A DNA stretch of 64,000 nucleotides from NCBI GenBank assembly GCA_026874595.1, contig CM049312.1, positions 72,014,929 to 72,078,928 of the forward strand. Direction: 5' to 3'. Below, in pieces: positions 25,303-64,000 of the stretch (the first letter of the stretch is position 1; each line of letters starts with the position of its first letter). Origin of the DNA: Sipunculus nudus. Lineage: Eukaryota > Annelida > Sipuncula > Golfingiida > Sipunculidae. The notes beneath the pieces are model-generated. The model saw nothing but the letters and a program-made list of their open reading frames with translations, ran no database searches and was not told where the DNA came from. The position numbers were made by a program, and so were the translations under genes.

Positions 25303-25466
25303 GAGGCAACCAAAAGGCAACCCACAGGTTAATATATAAGAGACAAAACAATGGATCATGGATAAGTATTCTGCTTAAGCTATCATTAATGTTTGTATCC
25401 CCTATATCTAAATTCAATTCAAACTGCTTTAAATTCATTCTAGATCCCATAAAGTGTATATTTTTG

Positions 25467-28515: not shown

Positions 28516-28615
28516 ATTTCATATCACTCTTTATATATTGGCTTGGTGAATATTAATCATATTATTATCCGCCTTATATTGACGTGTTTTGGTCCCGAGT
28601 TAGCCGCAAGGCCAT

Positions 28616-37099: not shown

Positions 37100-37604
37100 T
37101 TTAATAACGTTCTTTCAACCGTGGATATAACTTAATACCGGGACTACTAGTCCTAACTGCTTGAAACCGTTGCCCGTCTGGGCCAGGGAACCAGTCTAAT
37201 CCGGTTCGTGAATCACGTGGTGGATACAGAATCTGGAACCTTCCACCCGGATGATACTACCACTGAAAGTAGGAAATTTAACAAGATTTGTATGCCTCAG
37301 ACAGGCTCAATTTAGTGAGCAAATATAAATGTTATAAGGAGCAAGTTTTGACAACTAGATTTCATATAAAAATATGCATGGAGAGTGTACCCGCCATATT
37401 TGATTCACGTTAGGTACATTCACGTTTTCGGGTGCGAGCTCAGAAACCTGTGCGTGAATACCAGAATACAAGGAAAGGAAAAGCGAACCGAAACCACAGA
37501 GCAGAAACCAAATCGACAGACACGAAGAGCGTATAAAAAGAGGAATTTGAGATACATTCTGCCGTCGTATTAAACGAGAATTCATTAAAAACAAAGGAAA
37601 AATC
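37100..37604 (+). promoter_or_regulatory. Upstream region and 5' UTR of the ZIP gene
   Basis: This stretch is less AT-rich than its surroundings and contains several CpGs between 37140 and 37570. The start codon at 37605 has an AATC upstream context. No TATA box or metal-response element (TGCRCNC) was identified with certainty. The transcription start cannot be placed from sequence alone. Confidence 0.35.
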
Positions 37605-37976
37605 ATGGTGGTTTCGCGGACAGGCGATGGCTTCACGTTTCAGTTATTGGCAGCTGTTGTTTTCCTGTCTGTTGGCACGATATGTGAATCAAACGACGTG
37701 AATGCAGACAAAAACATGAACACACATTCAAAAAACAACACCGGGTCTCGGCCTCCCAGCTTCTATCTGCATCATATTTTCGATAAATATGGAAATGGCG
37801 ATAAAATATCATTTGAGGGATTTGAGCGACTTATAACCAGCTTGGGGCTGGGGAAAATTGTTCCTAAGGATCGTCATGATAAAGACCACGATCACACGAA
37901 CCATGATCACGCAGACCATGACCGTGATCATTCAAATCATGACCATGATCTCATCAACAATAAGACCAGCTTAACG
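37605..37976 (+). CDS. ZIP exon 1 (residues 1-124)
   Basis: The signal peptide hydrophobic core is FQLLAAVVFLSVGTI. The exon then has the EF-like segment and the repeated HDH/NHDH stretch. The donor is ACG|GTAAGG, phase 0. The frame stays open past the donor to a stop at 38127-38129. Confidence 0.93.
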
Positions 37977-40083: not shown

Positions 40084-43000
40084 ACGGTCCAGCCCCGGTG
40101 CGGAGCGCACACCGATGTTGTGGTATTTCAATGCGCCGTCCTCCCAGAAACGAACAACCAAAGACATGTGGCGATACATCATTTAATGACCTGATGAAGA
40201 AAAGACTAATGTAATGTGACACAAGTGGTGTCGACCAAGTTCTATGGCAGAGTCACTTTTTACAAATATACATATAAGCCATACACAGAAACAGAAAACA
40301 GCTTAAATCTAAAACTTCCAATGAAGGCATTATGTACTACTTTACAAAACACTGAACGCATTGTGCTAAAATATGCGAGTAACTGGATGAAGGCATTATA
40401 AAGACTATTTTACGAAACACTAAAATATGACTTTGCGAGTTAGAAAAGGAAATAAATGGCTGATATTAACAAGGCAACTGTAAGAAACAATTTCTCACCT
40501 GATGAAGAAAAGACTAATGTAATGTGACACGAGTGGTGTCGACCAAGTCCTATGGCAGAGTGACGGCTGAACGGACTTCTGGTCCGAGGTTTCCGCCACT
40601 CTGCACACTGTCAGGTGTTAGTTATTATGTTAATGAACATGGACGTCGGTTCATTGGTTTCCTCATCCGATATAACCGGATCCAGTGGAATAACTGGAAT
40701 GTTCTGGTCGGATGACATTTCGGAATGAACAGAGGGATTTTCTGAGATATTAATGGGAATTCCAGGGAATTCCTCTTCATAGGGGCTCAGTGGTATTGGT
40801 ATCATATTATCATCTAATATCTCTTCATCGGGAGATAGACATTCTTGAATGTCAGGTAGTACATTATCACCTAATATCTCGCCTGGAGATTGACACTCTT
40901 GAATGTTATCAACTGGAAGTACATTATTCATTGGCAAAGTATGTTGAGGGGTAACCTGCTGAGGAACATCGGAATTCCTTTGATTATGCTGGTTTCTGTC
41001 AGAAACTCTAATAACAAGCGGTGGTTGGTCATCAAATGAGTCCTCCATCACGTCACTGTTGTCATATTTGTTTGTTTCTGAAGCTCGTTGAGCTGTGTCA
41101 TATGCAAATTTTAACTCTTTTTGGAGATCTGCAACATACGTTTTATATGTTTTCCCTTGAGTTTGATTATCCACTCCAAGGAACAAATCGACTGGGAGTC
41201 TGGGGTGTCACCCAAACATCAAGAAAAAAGGTGACTACCCTGTGGCTTCGTTCCTTGTGCAATTGTACGCATGAGTTAATGGACCTACATATGATTTCCA
41301 ATCTTTCTTTTGTTCGGATTCAAGGGTTCCTAACATGTTTAATAAGGTTCTGTTAAACCGTTCAACAGGGTTTCCTTGAGGATGGTAAGGTGTTGTATGG
41401 CTTTTCTTAATCCCTGCAAGTTGGCATAGTTGTTTTATTAAAGCAGATTCAAACTGGCGACCTTGATCGCTATGGATTTGTAAGGGGAAGCCATAATGAT
41501 TAACGAATGTGTCAAATAGAATCTTGGCGGTTGGTTTTGCTTTGGTAGTTTTACATGGGACGGCTTAAGCATATCGGGTGTAGTGGTCTGTCATCACCAA
41601 GATATTTTCTATGCCACCCTTAGAAGGCTCTAAACGTAAATGTCTATGCATAGCAGTCCCATAGGCTCGGACGATGTCATACTTACTAAGGAGGCTACTG
41701 CAGGCTGAGCTTTCCGTCTGACACATCGGGGACAGGTCTTTATATATGACTGTATATCACGAGTCATAGTGGGCCAAAAGAACCTGTCCTGTGCCAGCTG
41801 GATACTGGGATTACGTCCTAGGTGGCCTACTTTATCATGTATTCCTGACATCGCGACTGGTCTGAGTTTAGAGGGTATTACAAGTTGATATTGTTTTTCA
41901 CCTTTGAAAACCCGCTTACGATAGAGAATTTTATCCTTCAGAACCAGAGCTTTTAATTTCCTGTACACAAGGAGCTGATCAGCAGTCAAGTTCTTCCGAT
42001 GGAGTTCAACATCGTCTCGGAGATGGAGAATGAATGGTTTAAGGACAGGATCATTGAACTGTTCAGCTTCTATGTCATATTTATGTGTAAACAGTGGATT
42101 GTGGTTTAAAGCCATTATCACAGGGGAATTAGGATTTGGACCCAAAGACCTTTCCATATATATATGGATCTGCAATATTTTATAATAGTACCAGGTGCAG
42201 ATGTTTTGTACCAAGGTTGATTGACGATCATAAGACCTTAAATAATAAATTTTACAATTTATTTTATTGGTGAACCAGGAACAGTATCAACAGTTCTCCT
42301 TTCATCCAGATGGTATTGTCCTAATTTATTTTATATTACATTATTAATCATTTTGTGACCCCCAGTTGATAATCAGTTTTATACCATTTTTTAATATTTT
42401 TCTTGAAGTTCATACTTGAACTGCAAGACCATTTTGTTATAAAAAAAAAAAACATTCTTGCCAAAATCAGTATTTTATTTGAAAGTATCTTAAATAAAGT
42501 TAAAAACACTTATAGTGAGTAGTGAATGAAGAAATAAAGGATATACATGTTTTTTTTTTTAATATCACTGAGCCCTCAATGTCTGCCAAAAAGCAAACTT
42601 TCTTTTCTATAAAAACAGTCCCCAGTGTTAAATTATGTTGTTTTTAATTCTGTGCATTTGTCTGCAATTAACATGTTTATTTTCTTGAAAATATAGACAT
42701 AATATTTATGATTCATGATATTTGAATATATATAAAAGTTTTAAGTTTTCTGCATTATTTTTAATAACTAGGAAAAACAGATCAAATTTGTATGTTTATC
42801 ACTTTTACTAAAGGTGGTTAGTACTGATATTTACAAGGACTATAGATATAATTACCTGAGGGCATACAGAGTGATCATTTAATACTTGTTGGCTGGTGTT
42901 ATGTGTGGGTAATAGATCTATATTTAGTTACTTTTGTGTACAGGGGCTGTTGTAATTTCATATAGAGTTGAAGTCCTTAGCCAGCATTTCAATTAAGTGA

Positions 43001-46000
43001 CAGGCCTATGCCCTAATTTCTATTGATTTGCAAATCATTCTGCAACAGGTGTTACCTTTATTTGCTGTAAATCAAACCGGATTTTATCAGGAAAATTCAT
43101 TTCAGTTTATAATAACATGACATTGTCAGGAAACAATTAACTTTCTAAATTAATAATGAAGTTGGCCTGAAAGTTAATAATGAGGTTGGCCCTATCCCTT
43201 AGACTTAGCATACAAATACTGTTTATTGATGGTCACTTACCAATCTCCACTCACCAGTATGATTAGCATTACAAAGATATAGTGAAAGCCAACAGAATTG
43301 TTAACACTAAATGTTGATACTGTGATAGTGTTAGTGATGGGTGCTACCCTGTTTTACTTGAAGAAAAAACATTGTTTCACAAAATTAATTACATTAGTTA
43401 ACTCCTTTCACGGATGCAGAGACAAACTTTCTAAGTGAAACCAGCCTCATAATTAATAACTGCACATGAATATATGTAAGTCAACCATGAATGTAAAATT
43501 TATTATTTTTCCCAACAGAATAACATCGCTCTATGCCTTACTTCAGAAAAAAACTGCTCGACAAGCAGATGAAAGTGAAAAAGTACTGTTAGTAATAGTG
43601 TGCTCAACTGCATGTACATGTACCACAATTGATGTGAACACAATAGCTTGTACTGCCACCCATCTTCAGTTAATTAAAATTTGACATTTGGGTGGTAGGC
43701 TGCCCTTAGCTCCATAAGGTCTGTTGCTACATTCTGTCAGTGCAAACATGTATGAGAGAAAACAAGCCCCCAAGGACAAAAAAGCCCTTCCTTAATGATA
43801 AAGGACAAAAGGCCCCTCCATTACAAAAGCAATATCAATTTATATATATACTTAAATATACAAAACCAATATCTACATATACTTCACATTTTTATTTGAA
43901 CTACGCAAGTAAAGTTCTGAAGATACAAATAATCAGTTTAATGAATATGCAAGTAATCAGTATTTTGATGAATTATTATACTTGATAGTACTAAATGATA
44001 CATATTGTTGACTTTTATTATATTTTTGATATAAAGTGACTCATCAGTTACATTTATATAAAATATTCTTACCACTACACAGTGTACCTTATTCACTGTT
44101 CCAGGTTTCACCTATGATAAATAAATTTACAGAATTGGAAATAAAGTCATACATTTATTTAAACAAAAAATGAAAATACAATTGGGGGGGGGGGGGGTGT
44201 TGTCCTCTTTACCATTTTGTAAGAGGCTTTGATTAGGGGAGCTATTCATCATGGGGGGGGGGGGGGGGGGCTTTTGTCCAGACGGCCAGCAGCAGGGCAC
44301 AAATCGTAACTGTAGGGGCTAGGGTCATGAACCCTATGCAGTCTTAGAGGTTCTAAAAAGATTTCCTTGCAAACCTGAAATTAGGTCACTGTGACCTATA
44401 TTCTCGAAGTTATGGGGTGTATTTGCAACCCCAAGAATTATTTCTTTTAGCCAAAATTTTCACCAAACGTTCCATATTTCACATACAGCTCACCTAGCAA
44501 CAGGGAAGAACCATTATTATTTTAAGGTCAAAGGTCAAGGTCACATGACCAACTTCTTTGAAAAGCCTGTGGATGCATTGTAAGCCAAACCTTTCATCCC
44601 AATTCTTTGATCTTTCACATATAGCTCACCTACTAAGTGGGAGAAGAATCCTATAGATTTTGAGGTCACAAAGTCAAAGGTCAGGGTCACAGGATCCACT
44701 TCTTTGAAATGGTTGTGGACACATTTCAAGCTAGACCTTTAATTCCAAACCTTTCAGCACCTTTCGCTTCTCTGCCAACAGGGGAAAAGACCTGTTGATT
44801 TTTTAGGTCAAAGGTCAAGTTCACAGCACCCACTTCTTGCGTGGAATCATTTTTCAGGCAAACTTTTCAATCTTTATTTTCCATATGTCATATATAGCTT
44901 ACCTACCAAAAGGGGAAGAAGCCTATTGATGTTGAGTTCCAAAGGTCAAGGTCACAATATTAAATTGTTCTTAATACTTGTGAACATATTTCAAGTGAAA
45001 CTTTTCAAACCAAACCTTCAGTCTTTTCACATATGCCACATCTATGCATCACTCAGTTTCATTCAAACTTCATATTTATGGGTCTTTTGCATGAAGAAAT
45101 AACTAATTGATTTTTGGGTCAGCTGGTCAGGAGGTTAAAGGTTGCAGGTCAAAGTTATTCGCTCATTGGTTGCCAAGTAATTACACCAGATTTAAGTGGT
45201 TAGTAGTTACCCATCATTTAGAAAGAATCCAGTTGATATGTTGGCAGAAGGCCAATGTCATAGGTCAAGGATGTTCATAATAACTTATTTTATAGACCAT
45301 CTCTATTTTTCTTGTATATATATTATATAACCATTGCACTCCAACTGGTACATCTCCTTTTGTGGCTGTAATTGATATTGATGCTGGTGACATATGACTC
45401 CCTTTTGTCTCAGCCTGTTAAGTGATAAGGCTGAGTGATAAGTATCTGTTACTGCATAACAAAAACACTGTTGCTGGAATGTTTTCAACCAGGCATTAAG
45501 ACTGTGAGAGTATAGTATTAAGGTTTAGCTACTGATTTATAAGATGATGGGAACATTTTGCAGTTTATTTTATGGAATCATAGCAGTAAACTTAAACTTT
45601 ATTAGATATCTGAATATTTTTAATATAAAACACCAGATATAAAAGCAAATGTTTGTCCTCATAATATGTGAATGTGTACCTGGATTTAGGATGGCTTTTT
45701 TTTTTTACAAGACTTGTAGTCATGCTTTCTGCATTTCTTTTCTTTCAGGTTTTGCAGGTTACCTACCCTGCTGACCTCATTGAAAAGCAGAGTGATAATA
45801 AAAAATACTGTACTTACACTTTTAACATTTGCATATCTATAAATCTGATATGAGGGCCTGAACATGCCTTTTGAATTGTTATGGACATTCATTACTGTAA
45901 CATCCTTTTGAGAATCTGCCACAGGTTTGGTCTCTTATTGGAGGATTTGTGATATCAAATGTCAGACTTGTCAGAAATCCATTAAGTCTGCCAGTTAGCC

Positions 46001-49000
46001 ACCTTAGAAATCCTTTTGTCAGTGCAGTTCCAGTAATTTTTTCAATGTTAGGTCCGATTTAGAGAATGTTTGTCTGATTTCAGACTACGCTCTTTACACA
46101 GCGCTTTAACTATAGGCCTATTGCCTATATGGTAAGCGCTGTTTGTTATGACCTTGTATCCTGAATTGCAACACCAGAGGAGAGCACTGTATTTTTGTCC
46201 AATCGGATGAGACCTTGTGCTGGAAGACACGGCCAAGTGAGGAATATACAGAGCCAATCATGTTCATTTCGTTTTGAGTGACAGCTCATCGTCCCGGTAA
46301 TGGGCTGAATAGGCCACAGGCTCGGAGAGAATTGCCGCAGACGTGGTTTGCTTAGGGCCTTGGGCCTTCAAACCAAACCTTCAGTCTTTTCACATATGCC
46401 ACATCTATGCATCACTCAGTTTCATTCAAACTTCATATTTATGGGTCTTTTGCATGAAGAAATAACTAATTGATTTTTGGGTCAGCTGGTCAGGAGGTTA
46501 AAGGTTGCAGGTCAAAGTTATTCGCTCATTGGTTGCCAAGTAATTACACCAGATTTAAGTGGTTAGTAGTTACCCATCATTTAGAAAGAATCCAGTTGAT
46601 ATGTTGGCAGAAGGCCAATGTCATAGGTCAGGGATGTTCATAATAACTTATTTTATAGACCATCTCTATTTTTCTTGTATATATATTATATAACCATTGC
46701 ACTCCAACTGGTACATCTCCTTTTGTGGCTGTAATTGATATTGATGCTGGTGACATATGACTCCCTTTTGTCTCAGCCTGTTAAGTGATAAGGCTGAGTG
46801 ATAAGTATCTGTTACTGCATAACAAAAACACTGTTGCTGGAATGTTTTCAACCAGGCATTAAGACTGTGAGAGTATAGTATTAAGGTTTAGCTACTGATT
46901 TATAAGATGATGGGAACATTTTGCAGTTTATTTTATGGAATCATAGCAGTAAACTTAAGCTTCCTAGATATCTGAATATTTTTAATATAAAACACCAGAT
47001 ATAAAAGCAAATGTTTGTCCTCATAATATGTGAATGTGTACCTGGATTTAGGATGGCTTTTTTTTTACAAGACTTGTAGTCATGCTTTCTGCATTTCTTT
47101 TCTTTCAGGTTTTGCAGGTTACCTACCCTGCTGACCTCATTGAAAAGCAGAGTGATAATAAAAAATACTGTACTTACACTTTTAACATTTGCATATCTAT
47201 AAATCTGATATGAGGGCCTGAACATGCCTTTTGAATTGTTATGGACATTCATTACTGTAACATCCTTTTGAGAATCTGCCACAGGTTTGGTCTCTTATTG
47301 GAGGATTTGTGATATCAAATGTCAGACTTGTCAGAAATCCATTAAGTCTGCCAGTTAGCCACCTTAGAAATCCTTTTGTCAGTGCAGTTCCAGTAATTTT
47401 TTCAATGTTAGGTCCGATTTAGAGAATGTTTGTCTGATTTCAGACTACGCTCTTTACACAGCGCTTTAACTATAGGCCTATTGCCTATATGGTAAGCGCT
47501 GTTTGTTATGACCTCGTATCCTGAATTGCAACACCAGAGGAGAGCACTGTATTTTTGTCCAATCGGATGAGACCTTGTGCTGGAAGACACGGCCAAGTGA
47601 GGAATATACAGAGCCAATCATGTTCATTTCGTTTTGAGTGACAGCTCATCGTCCCGGTAATGGGCTGAATAGGCCACAGGCTCGGAGAGAATTGCCGCAG
47701 ACGTGGTTTGCTTAGGGCCTTTGGCACATAGGATGCACAGCCGGTGAGCTGTAATTCAAACAAAACGTAACAACAAAGGCTGCGTGCACACCTCGCTGGC
47801 TGGTTAAGTTCTGCATACAACAGATACATGGCTGCGCTAACACAGTCATACTGTCAGAATCGAATCGGATGTAGATGTGAGAATGCAGAGGGAGCAATTA
47901 AAATTTGACCATTAACTGTCTTCAAATGGCGCTTGAAGTGCAGCTATGGGCGGAGCCAGGATGCCTGTCAAGTGTTTGTTTATTGGCATCTGGTTGGCTG
48001 CTTGTCACATCATACGCACATGTTTTTCAGCGGACAACGAACTGCCATCTGGTGTCTAAATATATCATAAACGGTCAAAGCTGGCAGCATGAAAATCAGT
48101 TGCTTCTTTAGAAGCGTAAGATTTCCGCTGCCTCGGGAGCGTAATTTCAGACCTGTCAGATGTTCAATATGGCCACCAGGCAACCACCTTTAAATTTCTT
48201 TTGATAATATTATCTCAAGAACTGTTAAAGTGAATGCAGTCGGACATATATTAATGTAATCTTGGAAAGGATTGGGTCAAATATTTCTTAATAAATATTA
48301 CCATCATTTATAAAAGTTCAATACAGTTGGCTTGTACTGAATAAAAATTTATACAGAAGCACCCGTTTCTCAATAATTCTTGCATGGATTTCTTAGATTT
48401 ATGCTATATATTTTGTTCTTATAGTTAGCATGTGTGGTGTACCTTTTGAGACTTACAGGTATTAAGTAAGCTGTGGGAATAGTTCCTGATAGCTCAACAA
48501 ACATACATTTTTCCTCAGACCATCAATTCACTGTGTTTTAGCCAGACATAGCTGATATATATTTCTGTTTTCGTAAAAAATTTCAACGAATTGGCAAATA
48601 GGTTCTTCAAAAATTTGACTGGATGTTGTGAATCTCAGCGCATGATGTCAAAGGTCATGCTTGGCAGCTGAGCGTCATGATCCATGGGTCACTTGTTAAA
48701 TGTATAAATCTTAAGAAATAATTTTCAGGGATGTTTGATGAACCAACTGTGGTAATGGTGACCAGAAATAGGTTAAAAAAAATAGGAAATAAAGTTTTAG
48801 TCTTTGTAAAATTTTGATTCTCCAATGATTGATCTTGCAGTGCTGAAACTATTGACTTTTGCAAAATTTTGCTTATATGTAGACTTTACGGTTATGATGT
48901 GGAAATGTAAGTATTCAAATAATTTATGCCAGCAAACAATAGAAAAGACTGGTTTTACAAGTAAATTCATACCCAATTTTTTCCATTTACACAGAAAGGC

Positions 49001-49043: not shown

Positions 49044-51067
49044 TATTCATAATATATATATATATGACGATACCTGCACAGGTGTACATTATATATTTAT
49101 TTGTTCAGAATTTCATACTCCTAAATATGATCAAGTAATAAGTTCCATTATCCATTGGTAGATTCCAAACTCTGATTCCCAACACTGTTTGAGACCTATT
49201 ATAGTATAGATGGTCTTTCTTTAAATATATTGGACCCAAACACACTCAGCTCACTTGTGGTTGACAGATGGCACTACCTGTAAGTAGTCATGAGAGTCTT
49301 GAGAAATTAAAAAAAATTATTTCATCTATTTCAGTGCCTTCGTCCACAAGATATATTGCCTGAAGATGACAGTCTTACGCACGAAAACTTCCTACAAGTC
49401 TGTCCAATGATCATCTCACAGCTCGATTCTGGCGCTTGTAATGGGGAGGATGACTCGGGTCATGAAGGTCACCACCATGACAACAAAGATTCAGCAGTCT
49501 CAGCCACCAGCTCATGGAAAGGTAAGATGATCCTTAATTATAAATTATGTTTACCTTACAATTTTCATGCAGCTGGCATAAAAAGTACAGGTACTTAAAA
49601 GGTTGTTATTCGTGAGGGTTTCAGGTTTGCAATATTCACTCATTGTTAAAAATAGCAAAAAAAAAAACTTTAGTTCATGACACGTCCATTTATCAGCAAC
49701 CTAATCAAAAGATAGAAATGTATGCCATAGTGGTATAGATTGTGATTATTATATGATTTAAATCATACCAGCCCTGGATTTAACCAAAAAATACTTCTAA
49801 CCATTAATGCACACTTGCCTCTTATAACCATGATTAGAAAACTAACAAATTTACAATACATGTTTTATATCTGTCAAATGGGACAAAAGAGCTTACCAGG
49901 TATTATATTTCCTTTACAAAAGGATAAAAGTAGATGCATGCTCTGTCAGGTTCAGGAACTTGCATGTTAAATACTAAAATCAGATGTTTATATAGCCCCA
50001 ATGGTTTAAACATTGGGTTGCTGATCAGTATTCCAGCAAACAGAAATAAAGGCAAAGGATAATAGCTTCAGCTTAAATATATATCCTGCAAAAAGCAGGC
50101 AAGCTGGATCATTACTTCAGCTGTGTTTTGCATGATGGACTACATCAGGTGACAAAGAAACAAAACTGTATGTGAACAACAGATGTTGTACAATTTAAGT
50201 TTTTTTTATCAGATTAGGGAGGGTTAAATTCAGAAATACAAGCACTGCAGAAGTGTTGTATGTCTTTTGTGTAACCTCATTAAATAAGTGCAAAAATCAG
50301 ATAATTGAATTTAGGTGAAAAAATATTTATACTTTATAGTGAATTTCATGAAAATCCATAAAATCATCAAAATCAAGTCATTTGTGTTGGTGTGCAGGGG
50401 ACTCATGTGCAAGATATTTTGGCCTTGCTGGTTGACATTAACTAACCGATCTTGTGACTTGATCAGTTTTGGTCATGTAATAGTCAGAGCACCAAGTTAC
50501 ACTGCCCTACTTGTCAACATATGATAAACATATATCGAGATTTATATGATACCGTGCAACTTCAAAGTGTAACAGCATGCTAGACAAGGTATTGAGAACT
50601 AATATCAAGATCTAGATATATAATGCAAGTGTGGCAGATCACTTCTCTCAAATGAATAAGGCCCAGTAACATTGTGAACATGGTAAACATCAATAAAGAA
50701 GTTAAATAATTCACATCACGTGACCCAGTGTTTCACATGTCAACAGTGATTCACATAGCCACTTGACTGACTGATCATTGTTTTGTTGTTAAACTAGGCC
50801 TTATCTCTGCTGGCAGATGATTTATTCTGGTCCACACACTCCATAAATATTGATTATCATTCCTTAAGTGGATGTATACAAATATAACCTGTACAGTTAA
50901 TTATCAATGGCACACGATTTTAAACCTGGCTGTCACAGGGTCACTGAGTGCATGTCAACATTTCTTGTATGATCACAGCCGCAGAGCGTTTACATTCAGA
51001 AAAGATGCGTGCTGATTGTATCCGCCAAAACAGAGTTTTGCGGATACTATGTTTTCAGCTGGTCCCG

Positions 51068-51120
<53 letters not shown>

Positions 51121-54100
51121 GTAGGTGTCCGGAGAACTCCTCCGTAACCGCTGGGCGGAATTTTCCGAAACCCGGGATTATGTTCGGGTCACATGTGAAC
51201 TGCTGCGCCCCGATTTTGTTTTGACCTCTGACCTTTCCTTTGCGCTCTGCGTCCGTTTGTGCGTCTGTTTCCACACATAAACCCACATATCTCGGGAACC
51301 GTTTGACCGATCAGGAAAATTTTTTTGCACAAATGTAGCCCTCGGAGAGCTTTATAACATACACCAAAAATGGTGGCGCCACCTGCAACCATGTTTGCAC
51401 AGTGTCCATCTGTTCGTCTGCCTTGGGTTAAAATCACTCATATCTCTGCAGTGACTTGACTAATTCACCTGAAATTGGGCATGCGTAAACATCCTGGATA
51501 GCTTTTCTGATTTTATGACAGGTGGCGCCACCTACATTCACGTTTACGCTGCAGACATCCAAGCTCATATCTCGGGAACCGTTTGACCGATCAGGAAAAT
51601 TTTTTTGCACAAATGTAGCCCTTGGAGAGCTTTATAACATACACCAAAAATGGTGGCGCCACCTGCAACCATGTTTGCACAGTGTCCATCTGTTCGTCTG
51701 CCTTGGGTTAAAATCACTCATATCTCTGCAGTGACTTGACTAATTCATCTGAAATTGGGCATGCTTATACATCCTGGAAAGCTTTTCTGATTTTATGACA
51801 GGTGGCGCCACCTACATTCACGTTTACGCTGCAGACATCCAAGCTCATATCTGGGGAACCGTTTGACCGATCAGGAAAATTCTTTTGCACAAATGTAGCC
51901 CTTGGAGAGCTTTATAACATACACCAAAAATGGTGGTGCTACCTGCAACCATGTTTGCACAGTGTCCATCTGTTTGTCTGCCTTGGGTTAAAATCACTCA
52001 TATCTCTGCAGTGACTTGACTAATTTACCTGAAATTTGGCATGCGTATACATCCTGGATAGCTTTTCTGATTTTATGATAGGTGGCGCCACCTACATTCA
52101 CGTTTACGCTGCAGACATCCAAGCTCATATCTCGGGAACCGTTTGACCGATCAGGAAAATTTTTTTGCACAAATGTAGCCCTTGGAGAGCTTTATAACAT
52201 ACACCGAAAATGGTGGCACCACCTGCAACCATGTTTGCACAGTGTACATCTGTTCGTCTGCCTTGGGTTAAAATCACTCATATCTCTGCAGTGGTTTGAC
52301 TAATTCACCTGAAATTCGGCATGCTTATACATCCTGGATAGCTTTTCTGATTTTATGACAGGTGGCGCCACCTACAATCAAGTTTACGCTGCAGACATCC
52401 AAGCTCATATCTAGGGAACCGTTTGACCGATTGGGCCAAAATTTTGCATGTGTATAAATCTCACATAGCTCTCTATCATATGCAAAACTGGTGGCGCCAC
52501 CTGCAGCCATGTTTGCACAGCTCCCATCTGTTTGTCTGCCATGGGATAAAATCACTCATATCTCGGCAGTGGTTTGACATATCTGCCTAAAATTTTGCAA
52601 GTTTATACATCCCCGACAGCTCTCTTGATTTTATGACAGGTGGCGCCACCTGCATTCTAGTTTATGCAGCAGATATCCAAGCTCATATCTTGGGAACCGT
52701 TTGACCGATTGGGCCAAAGTTTTGCATGTGTATAGAGCTTTCTGGATTTTTTCGTAGGTAGCGCAACCTACATACACAATTTGGCTGCAGACATCCATGC
52801 TAATATGCAACACTTCACCCGTTCCACTCTGATTTAGGCGGATACAAGTAGTCGCTTGTCGACTACCCGTATTCTAGTTTTACATTAAGACTGTATTAAG
52901 AGTGAAACTGTTGGGATATTTCCAGTTCTTGTAGAGGATTGGGGAGGTTCTATTTTATGTGTTTTATAATAAATTATATCTCATATCCCCTTGACCTGTA
53001 TTTTATGGTTGAACTTCTGGTACTGTTGGGCTGATAAATAGTGTTTGGTACCTTAAAAAAATGTTATGTTTTTTGTCTTTTGTATTTAATCACAGAAATT
53101 AAATAATATGCTCAATCTTCACTTAATTACATGATATTAGGAAAGTCAACCCCAAAACCCACTGAGAGCTGTCAATAAAGCTGACCTTTCATGCTTCTGA
53201 ATGTGGCACAGTGCTCCATATGCCATGCCCAACTGTTCACTCCACTAACTGCTGCACAAAACTGCAGTTGTCTGCAGTTGCACCAGATGGTGCTGTCTCT
53301 GTGGATATTCCTCCTGCCTAATATTTAACTACCCCCTGTTGGAATACACAGGATGCAATTGTAACCTTTCAGGACAGTCTCTATACTAACTTGCTGTTGT
53401 GGCCTTAGGTCAATGAATTATCCCTGACTGTTTGCAAGTTTCCTCTCTTGCGGTGCCACACAACAAGCTTTGAATGGGTGCTGAGCCAATCAGAATTTGT
53501 TTTACAAGCTAAACATAGATGCAGTCATCTTTGTTTTTACTCTGAGCCAATCAGATTTTGTTTTACACATGGATGCAGTCATCTTTGTTTTCACTCTATG
53601 CCAAATTAGATTTTGTTTTACACATGGATGTAGTCACCTCTGTTTTTACTCAGAGCCAATCAGATTTTGTTTTACACATGGATGCAGTCATCTTTGTTTT
53701 CACTCTGAGCCAATCAGATTTTACCTTACCTTGCATCAGATTGCTGGCAGTTTGACAGCTGGCCTAACCTGAAGAATCCTTCCATTTCTCACAGCATGTG
53801 AGTGGAAGGTTCCTAGGAAGTCTCGCGCTGTGTTCAGTACATAGCTTTTGATATTAGAAACATACTCTTTTAAATTTTCAACAGTGACTGCACAGGTTTT
53901 CCTGAAAAACATGTCTTTATCACTGATGTTGAGACTGCTGACATCCTGTCACTTAATATGCAAAATCATGTCACTTATTTTATCCGCCAAAAAAAAGTTT
54001 TGCAGATACAGTAGAACGACGAATATCCGAACATCGTTTATCCAAAAAATCGTTCATCCGAAATAAAAAACGGAGAACCGAAATTTTGACCATATATCCG

Positions 54101-57100
54101 AAATTTGACAAAAAAATCCAGATAAAAAATGGTATAAAAGATCGTCTGATCGCTAGATCAGCGGTGATACATATTGCCGACTAATTAGTGCACCCGAGCG
54201 TAGGCAAAGTTAAAACACTGCCTCGCTAGCAGGGGTGTCCTCGGCTCGCTTTAATTAGAATGCCAAAGCCGGGGTAATTGACCTTCGCAAACCAAACGTT
54301 ACAACAGACCATTACTGAGTAGCCGACCACAGGTCGTAGGTGTGATAAACACAACCCTGCCAGACCATGCATTCCTTGGTTAAGCTTCGATCTCGGTGTA
54401 GTTAAAGGATAGCTTTGATCTTCGTTCCGGTAGTCACCATGGCCTCGAGTACTGTGGTGAGTAGATGTTGAGATTATGTGCGTCTCCGATATTTACTGAT
54501 TATAAAACTGTGTACATAAACTTGTTAACTTGTGCATTCAACCGATCCTCTCGCTTGTAATTTCAATAAAAATACAGTACATGTAAAAAGGTTCCCTTAG
54601 TATAACTATCTGACGAGAGATGGCAGCACTTTCGAGGTCATGGCAGGTCATTCCAGTTATCATGGCAGCCACGCGTGACATGATGTAGGTACGATAGCGA
54701 TTGTTTCAAGCAAAGGGCTGTTCATATTATTATATAACGTATTATATAATAATGTTTTCTGTTTGAAACATAAATTAAATCGATCGAAAATGTTACAATA
54801 TATTGTCACACTTTAATCATGGGCTAGCTCAATCAGTTTAGGTCAGTCAGTAACCGGAAATGTCCCGAACTCGGCGGTAATCACCATGATTCCCAAACAA
54901 ATTTAATTTGAAATCATTCATCCGAACGATCGTTCATCTGAACAAAAAGCTTGTCCCCCGAGGCTTTCGGATATTCGGCGTTCTACTGTACTATGTTTTT
55001 GACCGGGTTCCACTGCCACATTTGTTTCCAGAATAGAACTGAGACTACTGGATAGATTTTTCCGAAACTTTACACGATTATCGGGTCACATGTGAACTGG
55101 ACCAAAAATATTTTGCGTTGACCTCTAACCTTTCCTGTCTCCATTGCATCCATCTGTGCGCGTGTTTTGACACATTAACCCACATATCTTCGGACTCGTT
55201 TGACCAATCAGGAAAAAAAATTTGCACAAATGTAGCCCTTGAATAGCTTCATAACATACATAAAAAATGCTGGTGTCAACTGCAACCATTTATGCACGGC
55301 GTCTGTCTGTTTGTCTGCCGTGGGACAAAATCACTCATACTTCAGCAGTGGTTTGACTTATCTGCCTAAAAGTTTGCATGTATATACATCTTGGATAGCT
55401 TTCTCGATTTTGTGGCAGGTGGCCCCACTTCTTTTACGTGCAGGCTGCAGACATCCAGGCTTCTATCTCAGGAATGGTTTGACATATCCTCCTGAAATTT
55501 TGCATGTCTATAGATCTCACATAGCTCTTTATCATACCCAAAACTTGTAGCGCCACCTGAAACCATTTTTGCACAACATCCGTCTGTTTGTCTGCCGTGG
55601 GATAAAATCACTCATATCTCAGCAGTGGTTTGACTTTTGCAATTTTATACAACTTGGATAACTTTCTGGATTTTGTGGCTCACAACATAATACAATAAAA
55701 ATAATTGTTTTTGCCAAATTTACATAAAAGCTATATGCCCTCCTGTATCAATCAGGCACACAGTGCAGGTGCAGTCAGGTTTGCATGTGGACACAAGCAT
55801 GGACACTTTTCAATATATATATATATACACTTGTCAGTGTGGTTTTTAGGTCTTTCCCTTCTTCATAATGGCACCTAGCTCATTTCTGTATACTTTTCAT
55901 ACCTCCTGCTAAATTATCTGGTTTTGCAAAAACCAGTCAGCAACTTTATGTGTGAAGTTAAGGTGTTCTCACTAACCCCATGTACACTGATCAAATTTCA
56001 CAGCAAATAGTTTCTGTACCCTCAATGTCATATTCAGAGTGCCTATTTGCCAGCATTCTTAGCAGAATGCAAATATTCATTTTCCACAAAGAAAATCCAT
56101 ATGTAAACAAATCAAACCTGTTTCCAAAGAAAGCTTCATGTATAATGTCAACACTGTTCCACAGCTCACATTTCTAACAATGAACAAAACAAGAGCCCTG
56201 GTTGTGTTAACTAAACAATTGTGGCCTGCTTGGGCAAAACCTTACTGAATTCAGTTGTCAACTGATTTTTTAAAGCTTGACTAAGCTAGGCAAAATATTT
56301 TCTAGCATCAAATGGCTTGAAAAGTTATCCCGAGTTTGTCAGTGTTAAAAGAATTAAGGTATTTCATTTAAAATAAGTTCATTGGAATCTCTTTTACTTG
56401 TAATATATCATGTCTCCAACATGTCCTTGAGTACATAATGTTTTCTTGCTTGTTTCTGTGGACAACTCAAATTACAATGTCTCTTTGTGATTATTGATAC
56501 TTTTTAAAGAATAAGAACTTAAAACTGGTGTCTGTGGCTCAGTGTAGAGCACAGGACTCAAAGCTGGGAGGTTGTGAGTTCAAATCGCAGCCGAAGAGGT
56601 AAGATTTTCACCGTTTGCCCCCAACCAGGGTGAGTGCTAAGAAGACTTTATGGGAAAACTGTGCCCCACAGCCTTGTATCACTCATAAACAAGTGTGTCT
56701 TTGGGGGGGTTCCTCAGTGTCATGGTCCAACAATGGGATGATTACACACCCAGGACCCGCAGGTGAGGTAGACACCAGGCCTGGGTGACACCAGGATACA
56801 AAAATAATATGATAGGAAGCGATTGCTACCCTGTCACATAGTCCCAAACCAAAAATGGAACTCTGCAGGTGTAAAGACTAAAGGTAATAATTAGAAAAGT
56901 GAGCTTTAAAAAATGGAGGCAGTTACCTTCAGCAAAAATAAAAAGTAGACCAGGTTTCATTAAGCTGACTCACTCAAGTGAATGAAATTACTGCAGCAAC
57001 TTCAATTACACATGCCTTGGCTTGAACTTATCTCTGCTGATGATAGAGAAGTAACAATACATTAATTCATTATATGATACATATCACAATACTTCTCTCT

Positions 57101-60100
57101 TGATACAATACACAATACAAGACATATGATATGATATATATAAAAAAAAAGTACCTGATATAAGGGCACAAACACTGCGCAAAGATATAGTGTTCAAAGT
57201 ATGTGCTTTGGAATGTTAATTAAACCTGTGTTATTCCTGGTAACATTTTTATTGAGAATAGTTTGTAAAACACCCCTGGACATCATGGTGTTGCTGCCCT
57301 TCACTTAAGCCACAACAAACAACAATCATGCCCCCCCCCCCCCCTTGCTGTCTGGATTTATTGACACCTTTGACTGGGAAATGGCATATGGAGTGACGAC
57401 ATTGCCCCCTGATCTGTCATGATTCACACTCCAAAGATGGCCATTTTGTCACATAAAACCCTTGTTCAGCCTTTATTAATGCTTGGGTTTTAACAAATAC
57501 TGAATCTCTTGGTACAACGACCTCTGACAATACTGATTGAATATTTGACTTTGTTTTACAGTGTGTTGGTGCACCTAGGCGAGATTAAAATCCTGGCCTG
57601 CTTCAAGATGGATTTTAATCTCGCTTAGGCGAGATTGCGATTGTGATCTTGTCTAGGCGAGTTTAAAATCTGTCTAGCCGAGATCACAATTGCAATCTCA
57701 CCTAGGCGAGATCACAATCGCAATCTCGTCTAGGCGAATTTAAAATCCACCTGGATTTCAATCTCGTCTCTGACATATATTAAACAGTGAAGTGCATGCA
57801 CCAGGAGTATACAAGTCTCACTGTAAATAGGGGTCAGCAGCTTTTGATCATTGGTCCAGTGAATATGGGTGCCTCTTCTGTGCATAATATGTCTTATTAT
57901 GACATCATCATTGTTTCCTGCCATTTAAATTGCATCTTGACTGGTGGCAGGATGTCTCTACCGGTACAGAATAGACCAGTTACTCATAAAATGGTTTTAC
58001 ATTGTTAGGAAAATGACATGTAGGCTATTGTTTCCACAATAGTTAATTACATATTTTCCTGTTTCTGCCCTAGGTGCAAAAAAATTGCCATTCTTTGACT
58101 CCAAAAAAAAATTTAATCCGTAAAAACAGATGGACAGTGATGGTGGAACAGACTAAAGTCACTTATGGAAGTGTTTTGAATCAGTTGTTATTTGATGATC
58201 AAACATCAGTAAATATTGTTTGACCTCTAGAAGATTTCTGATCTAATATAAACATGTACATTCTCTCAATTGATATATATATATGCCTATATAATGGCTA
58301 ATATATTTAATAACTCTATAGCCTAAATGCATATTTATTTATTTATTTTTTTAAATGAATTTTTTCCCCCAAAAAAACAATACCTATAGACTAGGAAAAT
58401 CTTCCTAGATGTTGTCCTGTATACCTGTTTGGTATACAAAATACGTCGTTACATACTAAGCAAGACAATACAAATCAACAAAATATATGGGTATACATGA
58501 GTATACTAATGTATACTACTATGTATATACAAATATAGTTAAAAAAAAAAACAAAAAAACTTTATACACTTACATGACTGTTTGTGTAAATAATATGTTA
58601 TACTTCACTAATTAGTTTAACAAAATGTTATACCTTAATAGGGTGCCACCTGTCCTAGAAAATCTGTGTTTCCTTTTTGCACAAATATATTGAATTCAAT
58701 ATTTCAAATATTATTCAGGGATTTTTTTAATCTGTCAAACTATAGATTTTGATTCTGTTGCCTGCTCTTGTAACACTTGGTTAAGATAATAAATAATTGA
58801 TACTAACACCAAAATTTTGATTCCCCAAGAGTACATCATTTTTGTCCAGAATATAATTGTATCCGCCAAAACAGAGTTTTGCGGATACTATGTTTTCAGC
58901 CCACCGCTGCCGCGGCCGCCGCGTAGGTGTCTGGAGAACTCCTCCGTAACCGCTGGGCGGAATTTTACGAAACCCGGGATTAAATTCGGGTCACATGTGA
59001 ACTGCTGCACCCCGATTTTGTTTTGACCTCTGACCTTTCCTCTGCGCTCTGCGTCTGTTTGTGCGTCTGTTTCCACACATAAACCCACATATCTCGGGAA
59101 CCGTTTGACCGATCAGGAAAATTTTTTTGCACAAATGTAGCCCTTGGAGAGCTTTATAACATACACAAAGAATGGTGGCACCACCTGCAACCATGTTTGC
59201 ACAGTGTCCATCTGTTCGTCTGCCTTGGGTTAAAATCACTCATATCTCTGCAGTGATTTGACTAATTCACTTGAAATTTGGCATGCGTATACATCCTTGA
59301 TAGCTTTTGTGATTTTATGACAGGTGGCGCCACCTACATTCACGTTTACGCTGCAGACATCCAAGCTCATATCTCGGGAACCGTTTGACCGATTGGGCCA
59401 AAATTTTGCATGTGTATAGATCTCACATAGCTCTTTATCATACACATAACTAGTGGCGCCACCTGCAGCCATTTTTGCACAGCTCCCGTCTGTTTGTCTG
59501 CCATGGGATAAAATCACTTATATCTCGGCAGTGGTTTGACATATCTGCCTAAAATTTTGCAGGTTTATACATCCCCGACAGCTCTCTTGATTTTATGACA
59601 GATGGCGCCACCTGCATTCTAGTTTATGCAGCAAACATCCAAGCTCATATCTTGGGAACCGTTTGCCCGATTGGGCCAAAGTTTTGCATGGTATAGTTCT
59701 CACATAGCTCTTTATCATACGCAAAACTGGTGGTGCCACCTGCAACCATTTTCACACAGCGTCCATCTGTTTGTCTGCCAGGGGCTAAAATCACTCATAT
59801 ACATGTAGTTGTTTGACTTATCTGCCTTAAATTTTGCATATGTATACAACTTGGACGGCTTTCTGGATTTTGTGGTAGGTGGCGCAACCTACATACACAA
59901 TTTGGCTGCAGACATCCATGCTAATATGCAACACTTCACTCTGTTTCCCCTTGCCACTCAATCCATGCCTCACTTCACCCGTTCCACTCTGATTTAGGCG
60001 GATACACGTAGTCACTTGTCGACTACCCGTATTCTAGTTTTGATCAGATTCTAAATAGATAGGTATTGATTTCTGCCAAATGTGTTGAACACATAAACAA

Positions 60101-63100: not shown

Positions 63101-64000
63101 AAGTCCAAAAAAAAAGAATGGAATTCTGCAGATGTACATACTTAGTTAAGTAAGCATTAAATAATGAAGGCAGGTTACCTTTTACATTAAAAACTGTTTG
63201 AAAAAATATTTTGAAAAAAATTTAAAAAGGGTTGTAACACTTTTTTCACCACTCCAGAATTCACAGATTATAGTTCGATTATGTATCACTGATAAATATG
63301 CACTGATATCAATCAACATGTTGTTTTCTTTATTTCCAGTGTGGATTTTTTCTCTCATCTCCATCTTAATCATCAGTCTCGTTGGTCTGGTGTGTGTTGC
63401 TGTTGTTCCGCTTCTCCACAAGGTGGCATACAACCACTTGCAGCAGTTCCTCGTGACGTTAGCGGTGGGGTCTCTCCTTGGAGATGCCCTTCTTCACCTA
63501 CTGCCTCATGTAAGTAATTTCTGCATAAATTTGAATATATAATTAAAGGCGCCCATTGTTGTACCAGGTATTTTTAGGTATATTAGGTATACATTAAAAT
63601 ACAGTGTTCTCTTCAGGGTTTTCCACTAGCCAGTATAGCCTGGCACACTGCCAGCCTATCATTTCTCACCGCCATCCTTTAATGTTACAGGCCACTCTTT
63701 TCATCTGTCCCCGCCACCCTTTCTCTGTCCTTGCCAGACATACAGTGGTCAGGGTTTGCAAGGACTGGCCTTACAGACCTACCCTGCATGGGGTCTTGCT
63801 TAGCCTGGAGTAATTAAGCTGGTGTCTGTGCTGGGATCTTATCATCACAGCCATGACATCAGGTTTAACTGGCTGGGTATGAGGCAGCCCCCTGTTGTAG
63901 AGTAATAATAGAAGCCACAACTCCCTGGTTCCCTAATTGCTTTTTAATTACACAATGCCTGTTGGCATGGTTATTGATTAACATCGATACATATTCTGAC
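37605..64000 (+). CDS. LIV-1 subfamily zinc transporter (ZIP6/ZIP10-like), 5' part
   Basis: An SLC39-family importer that moves zinc (possibly other divalent metals) into the cytosol across the plasma membrane. Exons here: 37605-37976, 49335-49521, 63340-63509, phases 0/0, 1/1 and 0 on exit, giving 243 residues so far. Signal peptide about 1-28. EF-hand-like segment FDKYGNGDKISFEGFERL at about 59-76, ending LGLGKIV, as in ZIP6/ZIP10. His-rich stretch about 91-114. CP...C motif CPMIISQLDSGAC at 147-159, a second GHEGHHH stretch, TM1 about 188-209, and TM2 with LAVGSLLGDALLHLLPH. N-glycosylation sequons at N44 and N119. The remaining helices, including the HEXPHE motif, lie beyond 64000. ZIP6 versus ZIP10 (or ZIP5) cannot be decided. 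An extra small exon in the introns is possible but not required by phase. Confidence 0.93.
38231..38236 (+). terminator. Possible intronic polyadenylation signal
   Basis: AATAAA about 100 bases after the read-through stop of exon 1, with another at about 38302. If used, it would end a short transcript encoding a secreted 174-residue protein. Confidence 0.3.
38431..39487 (-). mobile_element. hAT element with 8-bp TSD, nested
   Basis: Termini AAGGGTTGGG and TGCCCAACCCTG, flanked by the perfect 8-bp direct repeat TTGTTAAG (38423-38430 and 39488-39495). Subterminal regions carry many ACCCAGG/GGGTAAAC words in both orientations. It contains a decayed transposase C-terminus. Confidence 0.88.
38760..39101 (-). 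pseudogene. hAT transposase C-terminal dimerisation fragment
   Basis: A 113-codon minus-strand frame carries ASSAAVELVFSNFDYIKNKI followed by RNRL and VLQSL. This is the Ser...E-x-x-FS...K-x-RNRL pattern of the hAT C-terminal dimerisation domain. The catalytic core and BED zinc finger are missing, so it cannot be active. Confidence 0.8.
40042..40080. repeat. (TA)n microsatellite
   Basis: About 38 bp of TA dinucleotides abutting the likely LTR remnant. Confidence 0.9.
40080..40610 (-). repeat. Probable LTR remnant with internal duplications
   Basis: Lies on the 3' side of the integrase fragment and starts TGTAACGGTCC. A 65-bp segment at 40189-40253 (ACCTGATGAAGAAAAGACTA...) recurs at 40497-40561 with two mismatches. 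A second shorter repeat (ATGAAGGCATTAT...) occurs at about 40322 and 40387. No second LTR was found in the window, so the call rests on position. Confidence 0.45.
40611..42145 (-). pseudogene. Ty3/gypsy integrase fragment, broken
   Basis: Minus-strand remnant of a Ty3/gypsy-type LTR retrotransposon. The N-terminal zinc-binding domain (HDKVGH and, 30 residues on, CPRC) is intact in the 41630-42214 frame. The catalytic core follows in another frame, with HSDQGRQF at 41451-41480 and NPVERFNR near 41360, supplying the second Asp and the Glu. Breaks: a frameshift near 41640 and in-frame stops at 41565-41567 (TAA), 41235-41237 (TAG) and 41208-41210 (TGA). The frame 40611-41186 is the acidic C-terminal tail. 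Reverse transcriptase, RNase H, protease and gag are absent. It cannot be active. Confidence 0.9.
42230..44180. other. ZIP intron 1, unassigned AT-rich stretch
   Basis: No element was recognised. A possible small exon begins after a CCCAACAG acceptor at 43519 (reading NITSLYALLQKK-like sequence to about 43582), but the donor is weak and nothing ties it to the ZIP family. Poly-G runs lie at 44184-44197 and 44254-44270. Confidence 0.35.
44330..45140 (+). repeat. Tandem array (about 140 bp) with AGGTCA nuclear-receptor half-sites
   Basis: Four or five diverged units share CACATATAGCTCACCTA, a GGGGAAGAA block and an AGGTCA cluster. Clusters: 44525-44543 (AGGTCA-A-AGGTCA-AGGTCA, a perfect DR1 joined to DR0), 44663-44689, 44805-44823 and 44943-44954. 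TCAAGGTCA, the FTZ-F1/ERR-type monomer site, also occurs. It lies in ZIP intron 1. Regulatory activity is inferred from sequence only. Confidence 0.7.
45004..46361 (+). repeat. 1.36-kb tandem duplication, copy 1
   Basis: Nearly identical to 46367-47721, with about five substitutions plus length change in a T run. Copy 1 continues from the AGGTCA array and ends in part of repeat E. The junction carries five filler bases, GGGCC (46362-46366). Confidence 0.95.
46367..47721 (+). repeat. 1.36-kb tandem duplication, copy 2
   Basis: Direct copy offset by 1360-1363 bp. Its right side continues into the rest of repeat E at 47722-48150, so the original arrangement was array end, unique segment, repeat E. 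The paired small frames (45303/46666, 46048/47408) are by-products. Confidence 0.95.
47450..48150 (-). repeat. Interspersed repeat E, copy 2 (inverted)
   Basis: Reverse-complement match to 29036-29962. It ends GATTTCCGCTGCCTCGGGAG (48119-48138), the counterpart of the start of copy 1, with the associated GCTTCTTTAGAAGC fold-back at 48101-48114. Confidence 0.7.
48655..48700 (+). repeat. Solo end motif of repeat S
   Basis: GGCAGCTGAGCGTCATGATC then CATGGGTCACTTGTTA, as at 13462, 14030 and 25258. Confidence 0.45.
49335..49521 (+). CDS. ZIP exon 2 (residues 125-187)
   Basis: The acceptor TATTTCAG precedes TGCCTTCGTCC and the donor is AAAG|GTAAGA. It encodes PEDDSLTHENFLQVCPMIIS then QLDSGAC, the conserved CP...C ectodomain motif of LIV-1 ZIPs, and a GHEGHHHDN stretch. 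It enters in phase 0 and leaves one base into a codon. Confidence 0.92.
49620..51010. other. ZIP intron 2, unassigned start
   Basis: No recognised element or gene in these 1.4 kb. Confidence 0.4.
51019..52877 (+). mobile_element. Helentron-like tandem-repeat element, copy B
   Basis: The 5' end TATCCGCCAAAACAGAGTTT folds on TTTTGCGGATAC. A (CCG)n expansion lies at 51068-51121. The core repeats with an exact 280-bp period (GCAACCATGTTTGCACAG at about 51386, 51666, 51946 and 52226); each unit is a dimer of related 140-bp halves centred on GGTGGCGCCACC. The 3' end is GGCGGATAC (52837-52845), a GTAGTCG/CGACTAC hairpin and CTAG. This is the most homogeneous copy. Confidence 0.8.
51068..51121. repeat. 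(CCG)n trinucleotide expansion
   Basis: About 18 uninterrupted CCG triplets inside copy B. The same place holds only a few imperfect triplets in copies A and D, so it expanded within this copy. Confidence 0.95.
53483..53725 (+). repeat. 54-bp minisatellite carrying CCAAT boxes
   Basis: Four full units and a fifth start at 53483, 53544, 53598, 53653 and 53707. Four of the five contain AGCCAATCAGA, a close match to the NF-Y consensus, followed by TTTTGTTTTACACATGGATG. Reading frames through it are periodic artefacts. Confidence 0.85.
53981..55680 (+). mobile_element. Helentron-like element, copy C, split and 3'-truncated
   Basis: The 5' end TATCCGCCAAAAAAAAGTTT is interrupted at 54008 by a 980-bp Tigger/pogo-like element and resumes at 54991 (CTATGTTTTTGACCGGG). 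Diverged 140-bp units follow to about 55680, where the sequence stops matching. The GGCGGATAC, hairpin and CTAG end are missing. Confidence 0.75.
54009..54988 (+). mobile_element. Tigger/pogo-like element inserted at TA in copy C
   Basis: A 980-bp element with 24-bp inverted ends CAGTAGAACG-CGAATATCCGAA (one mismatch between arms), flanked by duplicated TA (54007-54008 and 54989-54990). CAGT termini with ATCCGAA and a TA target fit the pogo/Tigger branch of Tc1/mariner. ATCCGAA words recur inside both ends. A CACCATGG start followed six codons later by GTGGTGAGT (54439-54462) may be the remnant 5' end of a transposase gene. No transposase catalytic motif remains. Confidence 0.85.
55681..56520. 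other. ZIP intron 2, unassigned stretch
   Basis: No recognised gene or repeat family apart from a short (TA)n tract near 55810. Confidence 0.4.
56525..56955 (+). mobile_element. tRNA-derived SINE, copy 2 (near full length)
   Basis: The head CTGGTGTCTGTGGCTCAGTG has an A box, and GAGTTCAAATC at about 56577 is the B box. The body blocks are shared with copies 1 and 3 (GTGCCCCACAGCC, ATTACACACCCAGGACCCGC, CCAGGATACAAAA), then GGAACTCTGCAGGTGTAAAG and an A-rich end near 56955. It supplies the 3' part missing from copy 1. Confidence 0.88.
57214..57510 (+). repeat. Interspersed repeat T, copy 2
   Basis: Matches 17625-17960: GTTAATTAAACCTGTGTTAT, TCATGGTGTTGCTG.CCTT, AAATGGCATATGGAGTGACG, TTAATGCTTGGGTTT. 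It contains a poly-C run at 57331-57344. Confidence 0.65.
57577..57769. mobile_element. Short TIR element built of CTAGGCGAGAT words
   Basis: The 17-bp inverted ends AGGCGAGATTAAAATCC (57577-57593) and GGATTTCAATCTCGTCT (57753-57769) have two mismatches. Inside, CTAGGCGAGAT and ATCTCG.CTAGGCGA recur in both orientations with ACAATCGCAATCTC, giving several overlapping hairpins. Confidence 0.65.
58020..58855. other. ZIP intron 2, unassigned AT-rich stretch
   Basis: No recognised gene or element. Confidence 0.4.
58860..60037 (+). mobile_element. Helentron-like tandem-repeat element, copy D
   Basis: The 5' end is almost identical to copy B, with a short GCCGCGGCCGCC stretch where B has the CCG expansion. 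The core has about seven 140-bp half-units. The 3' end is GGCGGATAC (59997-60005), a hairpin with one mismatch (GTAGTCA/CGACTAC) and CTAG at 60034-60037, followed by TTTT. Confidence 0.8.
60038..62900. other. ZIP intron 2, unassigned 2.9-kb stretch
   Basis: No gene was recognised. An approximately 80-bp direct repeat (CTTCGGACAAAC..GAGCATATGTAT..GGCAAACCGTA) occurs at 60610-60690 and 62457-62530, about 1.85 kb apart, perhaps the remains of a longer element. A region rich in CCCGG words lies at 61150-61370. Confidence 0.4.
62925..63185 (+). mobile_element. tRNA-derived SINE, copy 3 (5'-truncated)
   Basis: Begins within the family body (GGCCTTGCCCCACAGCC) and keeps TTACACACCCAGGACCAACA, CAGGCCTGG, CCAGGATACAAAATGA, GGAATTCTGCAGATGTA and an A-rich tail. 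The tRNA-like head is missing. Confidence 0.8.
63340..63509 (+). CDS. ZIP exon 3 (residues 187-243)
   Basis: The acceptor TATTTCCAG precedes TGTGGATTTT and completes the codon split at 49521. It encodes TM1 (IFSLISILIISLVGLVCVAV) and TM2 with FLVTLAVGSLLGDALLHLLP, a ZIP-family hallmark. The donor is CAT|GTAAGT, phase 0. No later exon is seen before 64000. Confidence 0.95.
63510..64000 (+). other. ZIP intron 3, start
   Basis: No exon or clear repeat was recognised. The gene continues beyond the window. Confidence 0.5.

Follow-up and report, generated by a model that had tools for sequence, protein, structure and literature searches.

A probable family of Helentron-like non-autonomous elements with a dimeric tandem core in Sipunculus nudus

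Main Finding

Four related copies of a repeated element, designated A−D, were found in a 64,000-nt stretch of the Sipunculus nudus genome (assembly GCA_026874595.1, contig CM049312.1, positions 72,014,929 to 72,078,928 of the forward strand; hereafter the window, to which all coordinates refer). The set has the look of a new family within a known type of small non-coding mobile element, and the copies are probably HINEs, i.e., non-autonomous, Helentron-like elements, with a core built as an array of dimers, the first of which would have been multiplied in the lineage of copy B. Each dimer is composed of a long half (a) and a short half (b), numbered by position. The four copies were as follows:

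25466-26608, + strand: copy A, complete, with a1b1, a2b2 cut to 243 bp (a2 147, b2 96) and a3b3
51018-52877, + strand: copy B, a complete HINE-like element of 1860 bp with paired GTATCCGCC/GGCGGATAC ends
53980-~55680, + strand: copy C, with T instead of G as first base, dimer 1, a2 and a b-half piece, lacking the 3' end
58859-60037, + strand: copy D, complete, with a1b1, a2b2 and a3b3; nearest relative, copy B

The boundaries of the element were deduced from the three complete copies (A, B and D). The original prediction of four related copies was correct in number, with C lacking its 3' end and being interrupted by a transposon, and the predicted start of copy B (51019) had to be moved by one base to the G at 51018, the complement of GGCGGATAC being GTATCCGCC. 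Judged by their sequences, the copies form two subfamilies, A/C and B/D, in which C groups with A and D is nearest to B.

Element Ends and Insertion Sites

All four copies start with (G/T)TATCCGCC, in the form GTATCCGCC in A, B and D and TTATCCGCC in C. The motif GGCGGATAC or its complement occurs six times in the window against 0.11 expected, a count reached by none of 100 shuffles, and the occurrences form three inverted GTATCCGCC/GGCGGATAC pairs that bracket A, B and D, the 9-mer being found nowhere else in the window. The 8-mer TATCCGCC, when scanned over the window, gave one extra, solitary occurrence outside the copies, at 28566. The terminal features are best illustrated by copy B:

51018-51047, + strand: 5' subTIR and complementary IR, folding into 13 pairs with a single bulge and the loop AGA
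51068-51120, + strand: perfect microsatellite (GCC)17.7, detected with TRF
52837-52877, + strand: 3' end, with the subTIR GGCGGATAC, the stem GTAGTCG/CGACTAC and the terminal CCGTATTCTAG, followed by TTTT

The shared 5' end had been predicted to fold on itself, and this was borne out most strongly for B and D, each with a hairpin of 13 pairs and one bulge (z = -7.0; 0 of 200 shuffles folded equally well), followed by the shorter hairpin of A (z = -4.3; 1 of 200) and the decayed, weak one of C (z = -1.8; 17 of 200). At the place of the microsatellite, a short imperfect GCC-like stretch was seen in D in the B−D alignment, and a similar one was recognized in A by eye.

The 3' layout, in which GGCGGATAC starts 41 nt before the end and is followed by the stem and CCGTATTCTAG, is common to A, B and D, and the predicted subterminal inverted motif, hairpin and CTAG end are thus present in the three complete copies. 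Their last 18 bases (CGACTACCCGTATTCTAG) are identical and have no other site in the window, and the last 60 bp agree at 55/60 positions for A−B, 55/60 for A−D and 58/60 for B−D. The stem is GTAGTCG/CGACTAC in A and B and is one pair shorter in D. With regard to fold energy, the 41-nt 3' region was moderately better than its shuffles in B (z = -2.9; 0 of 200) and hardly so in A (z = -1.7; 17 of 200) and D (z = -0.9; 41 of 200). A longer 3' hairpin (GGATAC/GTATTC), which arose under one DNA parameter set but was not the minimum-energy structure, was discarded.

TT precedes all four copies and TTTT follows the three complete ones, at none of which a target duplication was visible beyond the T runs. 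The trailing TTTT may be element or target sequence, the three copies fitting either. No empty site was found on matching the flanks of the copies against the window; for the left flank of A, 34 bp matched in inverted orientation (91%) at 26987-27020, a match in which the junction was not spanned.

The interruption of copy C, at a place where A, B and D have uninterrupted sequence, was found to be a separate element with the inverted ends CAGTAGAACG(A/C)CGAATATCCGAA:

54009-54988, + strand: 980-bp inverted-repeat element in copy C, with TA on both sides (54007-54008 and 54989-54990)

It resembles a non-autonomous element of the Tc1/mariner or pogo type.

Dimeric Tandem Core

The core has the same orientation in all four copies and consists in each of halves that are by turns long (~153 bp) and short (~127 bp), giving dimers of ~277-280 bp. 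The starts of the units are spaced alternately by 153 (150-153) and 127 bp, and the spacing of the GGTGGCGCCACCT palindrome likewise alternates between 149 and 128-131 bp, with the rhythm locally broken by indels in the second dimer of A and in the last unit of B. The three dimers of A measure 280, 243 and 278 bp and those of D 280, 278 and 277 bp, while the dimer of C has 279 bp. The core of C comprises a1b1 and a2 together with 68 bp of a b half, whose position label is uncertain, being closest to b3 of A (88%) and b1 of C (87%), and then passes into unrelated sequence. In copy B, a 280-bp tandem array was reported by TRF at 51286-52709 (5.1 copies, 91% matches), and the core of this copy comprises the following parts:

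51286-52405, + strand: four copies of dimer 1 (a1 153 + b1 127 bp) with a period of exactly 280 bp
52406-52683, + strand: dimer 2 (a2 151 + b2 127 bp), 264 of 278 bp identical to dimer 2 of D
52684-52801, + strand: remnant of dimer 3 in which a3 and b3 are fused, 118 bp against 277 bp in D (52684-52790 taken into the alignment)

The exact 280-bp repeat of B had been predicted, and only the division of the unit into two halves of 140 bp was replaced by one of ~153 and ~127 bp. The accompanying statement that A, C and D hold only diverged halves failed, the same long/short alternation being present there. For the same reason, the views that B is the only dimeric copy and that A, C and D have no ~280-bp period were rejected, since dimers of 277-280 bp occur in each of them (with the second of A at 243 bp).

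The 27 halves that were excised and aligned fell into two classes, a (long) and b (short), with a mean identity of 80.2% within classes (156 pairs) and 57.2% between a and b (169 pairs), the fused unit of B being excluded; FastTree gave a support of 1.000 both to the a/b split and to the a1 clade. The long/short alternation predates the split of A/C from B/D. Halves a at the same position in different copies were 85.8% identical (22 pairs), against 74.7% for those at different positions (39 pairs), and the corresponding values for halves b were 82.4% and 77.5%. Across the subfamilies, same- and different-position identities were 82.3% and 73.0% for a and 78.6% and 77.0% for b, all of these means counting the four dimer-1 units of B several times. 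The positional identity of the b halves is weak overall, and the inner halves are unmatched across subfamilies. The outermost halves are alike across subfamilies (A−D a1 86%, b3 85%), whereas the inner ones are alike within a copy (a2−a3 85% in A and 89% in D, against 78% for A−D a2 and 81% for A−D a3). A positional divergence of all three dimers ahead of the subfamily split was consequently discarded as an idea, as it holds for a1 and b3 only. The similar or greater likeness of the inner halves within subfamilies suggests a later exchange or renewal of units there, and unit exchange inside the arrays would be expected to leave such a pattern.

Probable Expansion of Dimer 1 in Copy B

Dimer 1 is present four times in B and once each in A, C and D, and the satellite-style amplification proposed for B was supported to this extent; its description as recent was not, the mean divergence among the B dimers being 3.75% (bootstrap interval 2.2-5.4%) against 4.2% between B and D (26 of 624 compared sites; bootstrap interval 2.7-5.9%). 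The latter comparison, made on ungapped columns outside the GCC stretch and outside the a3 portion of the fused unit, comprised 0/44 and 7/165 differences in the 5' parts, 14/278 in dimer 2 and 5/137 in the 3' part. The B dimers differ from each other at 5, 10, 11, 11, 10 and 16 of 280 positions (1.8-5.7%), and B1−B4 differ from dimer 1 of D at 10, 11, 14 and 12 of 280, respectively. Given the broad overlap of the bootstrap intervals, these values give the expansion no measurably younger age than the split of B from D. Units 1 and 2, with 5 differences in 280, may be younger, with an excess similarity that was not significant (Fisher p = 0.076). The states at columns 170 and 192 point to unit 4 as the first to separate and to units 1 and 2 as the last, but a simple order of units is contradicted by column 93, at which B4 goes with D, and by column 200, at which B1, B3 and D stand against B2 and B4.

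The period of the expansion matches the spacing of a short repeat in the unexpanded sister copy:

59088-59113, + strand: 26-bp exact repeat in D at the start of a1, recurring where a2 begins (59368), at a distance of exactly 280 bp

In D, this 26-mer is the only exact match of at least 12 bases at offset 280; there is none of that length at offsets 279 or 281, and the other long repeats of D sit at offsets 277-278. Exchange or slippage at the 26-mer would add exactly 280 bp, which is also the period of the array in B, and the repeat is a likely substrate of the B-type expansion. Dimer 1 would have grown in the B lineage from one to four units, with exactly 280 bp gained at each step; the simplest route would be for a1 and a2 to slip or exchange unequally at their identical 26-bp starts. 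Such growth is ordinary array enlargement inside a HINE rather than the product of a separate mechanism. B also differs from D near the 3' end, a 39-bp gap in B being flanked in D by two CACTTCAC repeats.

An ancestral array of several dimers, from which D, A and C lost units while B remained the conservative copy, would account for B dimers that are nearly as divergent mutually as B is from D, and for the states shared by B4 and D1 at column 93 and by B1, B3 and D1 at column 200. This history is considered rather doubtful, given that A, C and D each hold a single dimer 1 and that a state at column 80 is common to all four B units and absent from D, A and C. Multiplication of dimer 1 within the B lineage is accordingly the reading retained here.

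Element Class

The assignment of A−D to the HINE/DINE-1/pearl type is supported on structure, although not proven, and the predicted DINE-1/Helentron and pearl layout stood in that respect (ends, microsatellite slot, tandem core and T-rich flanks). The Helentron and HINE features used for comparison are those given in PMC4067079, and the layout agrees with features given in PMC7492417 as well. Where HINEs have subTIRs of ~11-15 bp at both ends, GTATCCGCC/GGCGGATAC are exact over 9 bp in A, B and D and match at 12 of 13 positions in B and D, with one mismatch; nine exact base pairs are fewer than the 11 bp of the family rule in that source. The IR complementary to the 5' subTIR corresponds to the 5' hairpin of A, B and D (decayed in C). 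The 3' palindrome, for which a distance of ~8-35 nt from the terminus is described, stops 11 nt before the CTAG terminus, and the 3' subTIR has its outer edge at 41 nt and its inner edge at 32 nt from the end, against a described range of ~38-60 nt whose counting edge is ambiguous. The fixed-orientation tandem core with its microsatellite, perfect only in B and imperfect in D, agrees with the same description. For the insertion context, described as a T-rich site or TT without target duplication, all four left flanks and all three right flanks were T-rich, with nothing duplicated beyond T. Among the 23 listed stop-to-stop ORFs of at least 100 aa in the window, none gave a Pfam match to a Rep/helicase. 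Mobilisation would have occurred in trans through a Helentron Rep/helicase protein encoded elsewhere, with the 5' hairpin and subTIR acting as the start and the 3' subTIR, stem and CTAG as the stop of rolling-circle transfer into T-rich sites, by analogy with the family.

The CTAG end also has the form of the CTRR end of ordinary Helitrons, and with a stem 11 nt before the terminus it fits the CTRR-plus-palindrome arrangement (PMC4067079, in part); a proto-Helentron with 5' TT and 3' CTAG is described in the same source, and similar oyster elements carry the name Helitron-N in Repbase (according to the relevant part of PMC8268682). The copies might then be non-autonomous members of the canonical Helitron group or of an intermediate between Helitrons and Helentrons, in which the 3' hairpin is the stop and the subTIR is secondary. 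Such a placement appears unlikely, since with boundaries taken from the comparison of copies the 5' TC is missing and T, not A/T, surrounds the elements (before and, as TTTT, after the three complete copies, and before C), and since the subTIRs and the 5' IR agree with the description of HINEs. Still less credible, to the point of being very improbable, is a derivation as MITEs from an inverted-repeat DNA transposon, with a cut-and-paste transposase as the mover. The presence of GTATCCGCC/GGCGGATAC in inverted orientation close to both ends, and the earlier annotation of comparable elements as MITEs (noted in the part of PMC4067079 used), would agree with it, but the inverted repeats are asymmetric, lying at the very 5' end on one side and 32 nt inside the 3' end on the other, and no complete copy of the three shows a target duplication beyond the T runs, in contrast to the TA-flanked element nested in C. 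The HINE assignment is thus preferred.

Exact-pattern scans gave no match to the 3' end or the 5' hairpin in viral contigs and none to the 3' end in a collection of genome contigs, as expected for a eukaryotic element. No family was returned by Rfam, and the literature searches yielded no report pairing GGCGGATAC with helitron and none related for GGTGGCGCCACC.

Probable Host Gene and Surroundings

Copies B, C and D are positioned between two ORFs on the + strand with matches to zinc transporter domains, at 37551-38126 (EF-hand_Zip, E = 0.003, below the Pfam cut-off) and 63168-63539 (Zip, E = 2.8e-11, above the cut-off). These ORFs probably represent exons of a gene for a ZIP-type zinc transporter, and the three copies are therefore probably intronic in that gene. 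Their location in one single intron is plausible and hinges on a candidate exon at ~49.3 kb that was recognized by eye, with small exons between being possible; Pfam returned nothing for this candidate. A PDB search with the two ZIP ORFs gave no matches, and NCBIfam gave no families for three ORFs. On reading the translation, a histidine-rich stretch was seen in 37551-38126.

Several other repeats and fragments were observed in the window. Segments 45004-46365 and 46367-47725 form a tandem duplication of ~1.36 kb (99.3% identical), which is either a recent event or an assembly artefact. On the - strand, 41238-42286 matched the integrase zinc-binding domain (E = 1.2e-17) and, just below the Pfam cut-off, the integrase core (E = 1.2e-07), these fragments probably being retroelement remains, and 38763-39134 contained a hAT C-terminal dimerisation fragment just above the Pfam cut-off. 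A 54-bp tandem repeat (TRF, 3.9 copies) lies at 53513-53722, shortly upstream of copy C, and a CTAGGCGAGATT-like motif recurs in short repeats between C and D at 57570-57770 (TRF row 57667-57737). Direct repeat pairs were also seen at 13111-13497/13674-14063 (88% identical) and 11745-12181/22976-23427 (78%).

Known Relatives and Significance

The closest parallels are the Cg_HINE elements of Crassostrea gigas (PMC7492417), of which the parts of the paper considered here describe 11 with corresponding parts and order: a 5' subTIR with complementary IR, a microsatellite, a short satellite-like array in fixed orientation (mostly of at most five monomers), a 3' subTIR followed by a palindrome, and T-rich sites with no sign of target duplication. 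According to the same parts, these elements could not be related to autonomous Helentrons. Compared by description, they differ in their consensus monomers of 138-181 bp, against the 277-280-bp dimer of unlike halves found here, and a term search of the main text of PMC7492417 gave no occurrence of "dimer" or "higher order". The bivalve pearl elements, as summarized in PMC7492417, have a similar architecture, with central repeats of ~160 bp in short arrays of no more than six. The DINE-1/HINE elements of Drosophila, mite and mosquito (PMC4067079, in part and by description) share subTIRs, the 5' IR (DINE-1), a microsatellite with central repeats, the 3' palindrome and, judging by the T-rich flanks, apparently the TT preference, with the difference that no autonomous partner was identified in the present window. 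Helitron- and Helentron-borne satellite arrays, and their growth and shrinkage, are an established topic in the portions of PMC11136912, PMC8268682 and PMC12628747 consulted.

A more speculative suggestion, held only tentatively, is that in the B/D lineage a chance 26-bp identity of the starts of dimers 1 and 2 makes the 280-bp dimer prone to multiply stepwise and so seeds a higher-order satellite, from which free-standing 280-bp dimer arrays in other parts of the genome could derive. HINEs that bear and spread tandem repeats have already been published for oysters, and the value of the present family consequently lies in a worked case rather than in a discovery: for the possible growth of satellite-like arrays in rolling-circle elements, copies B and D provide a clean, small example with an expanded sister, an unexpanded sister and a short repeat whose spacing would determine the period.
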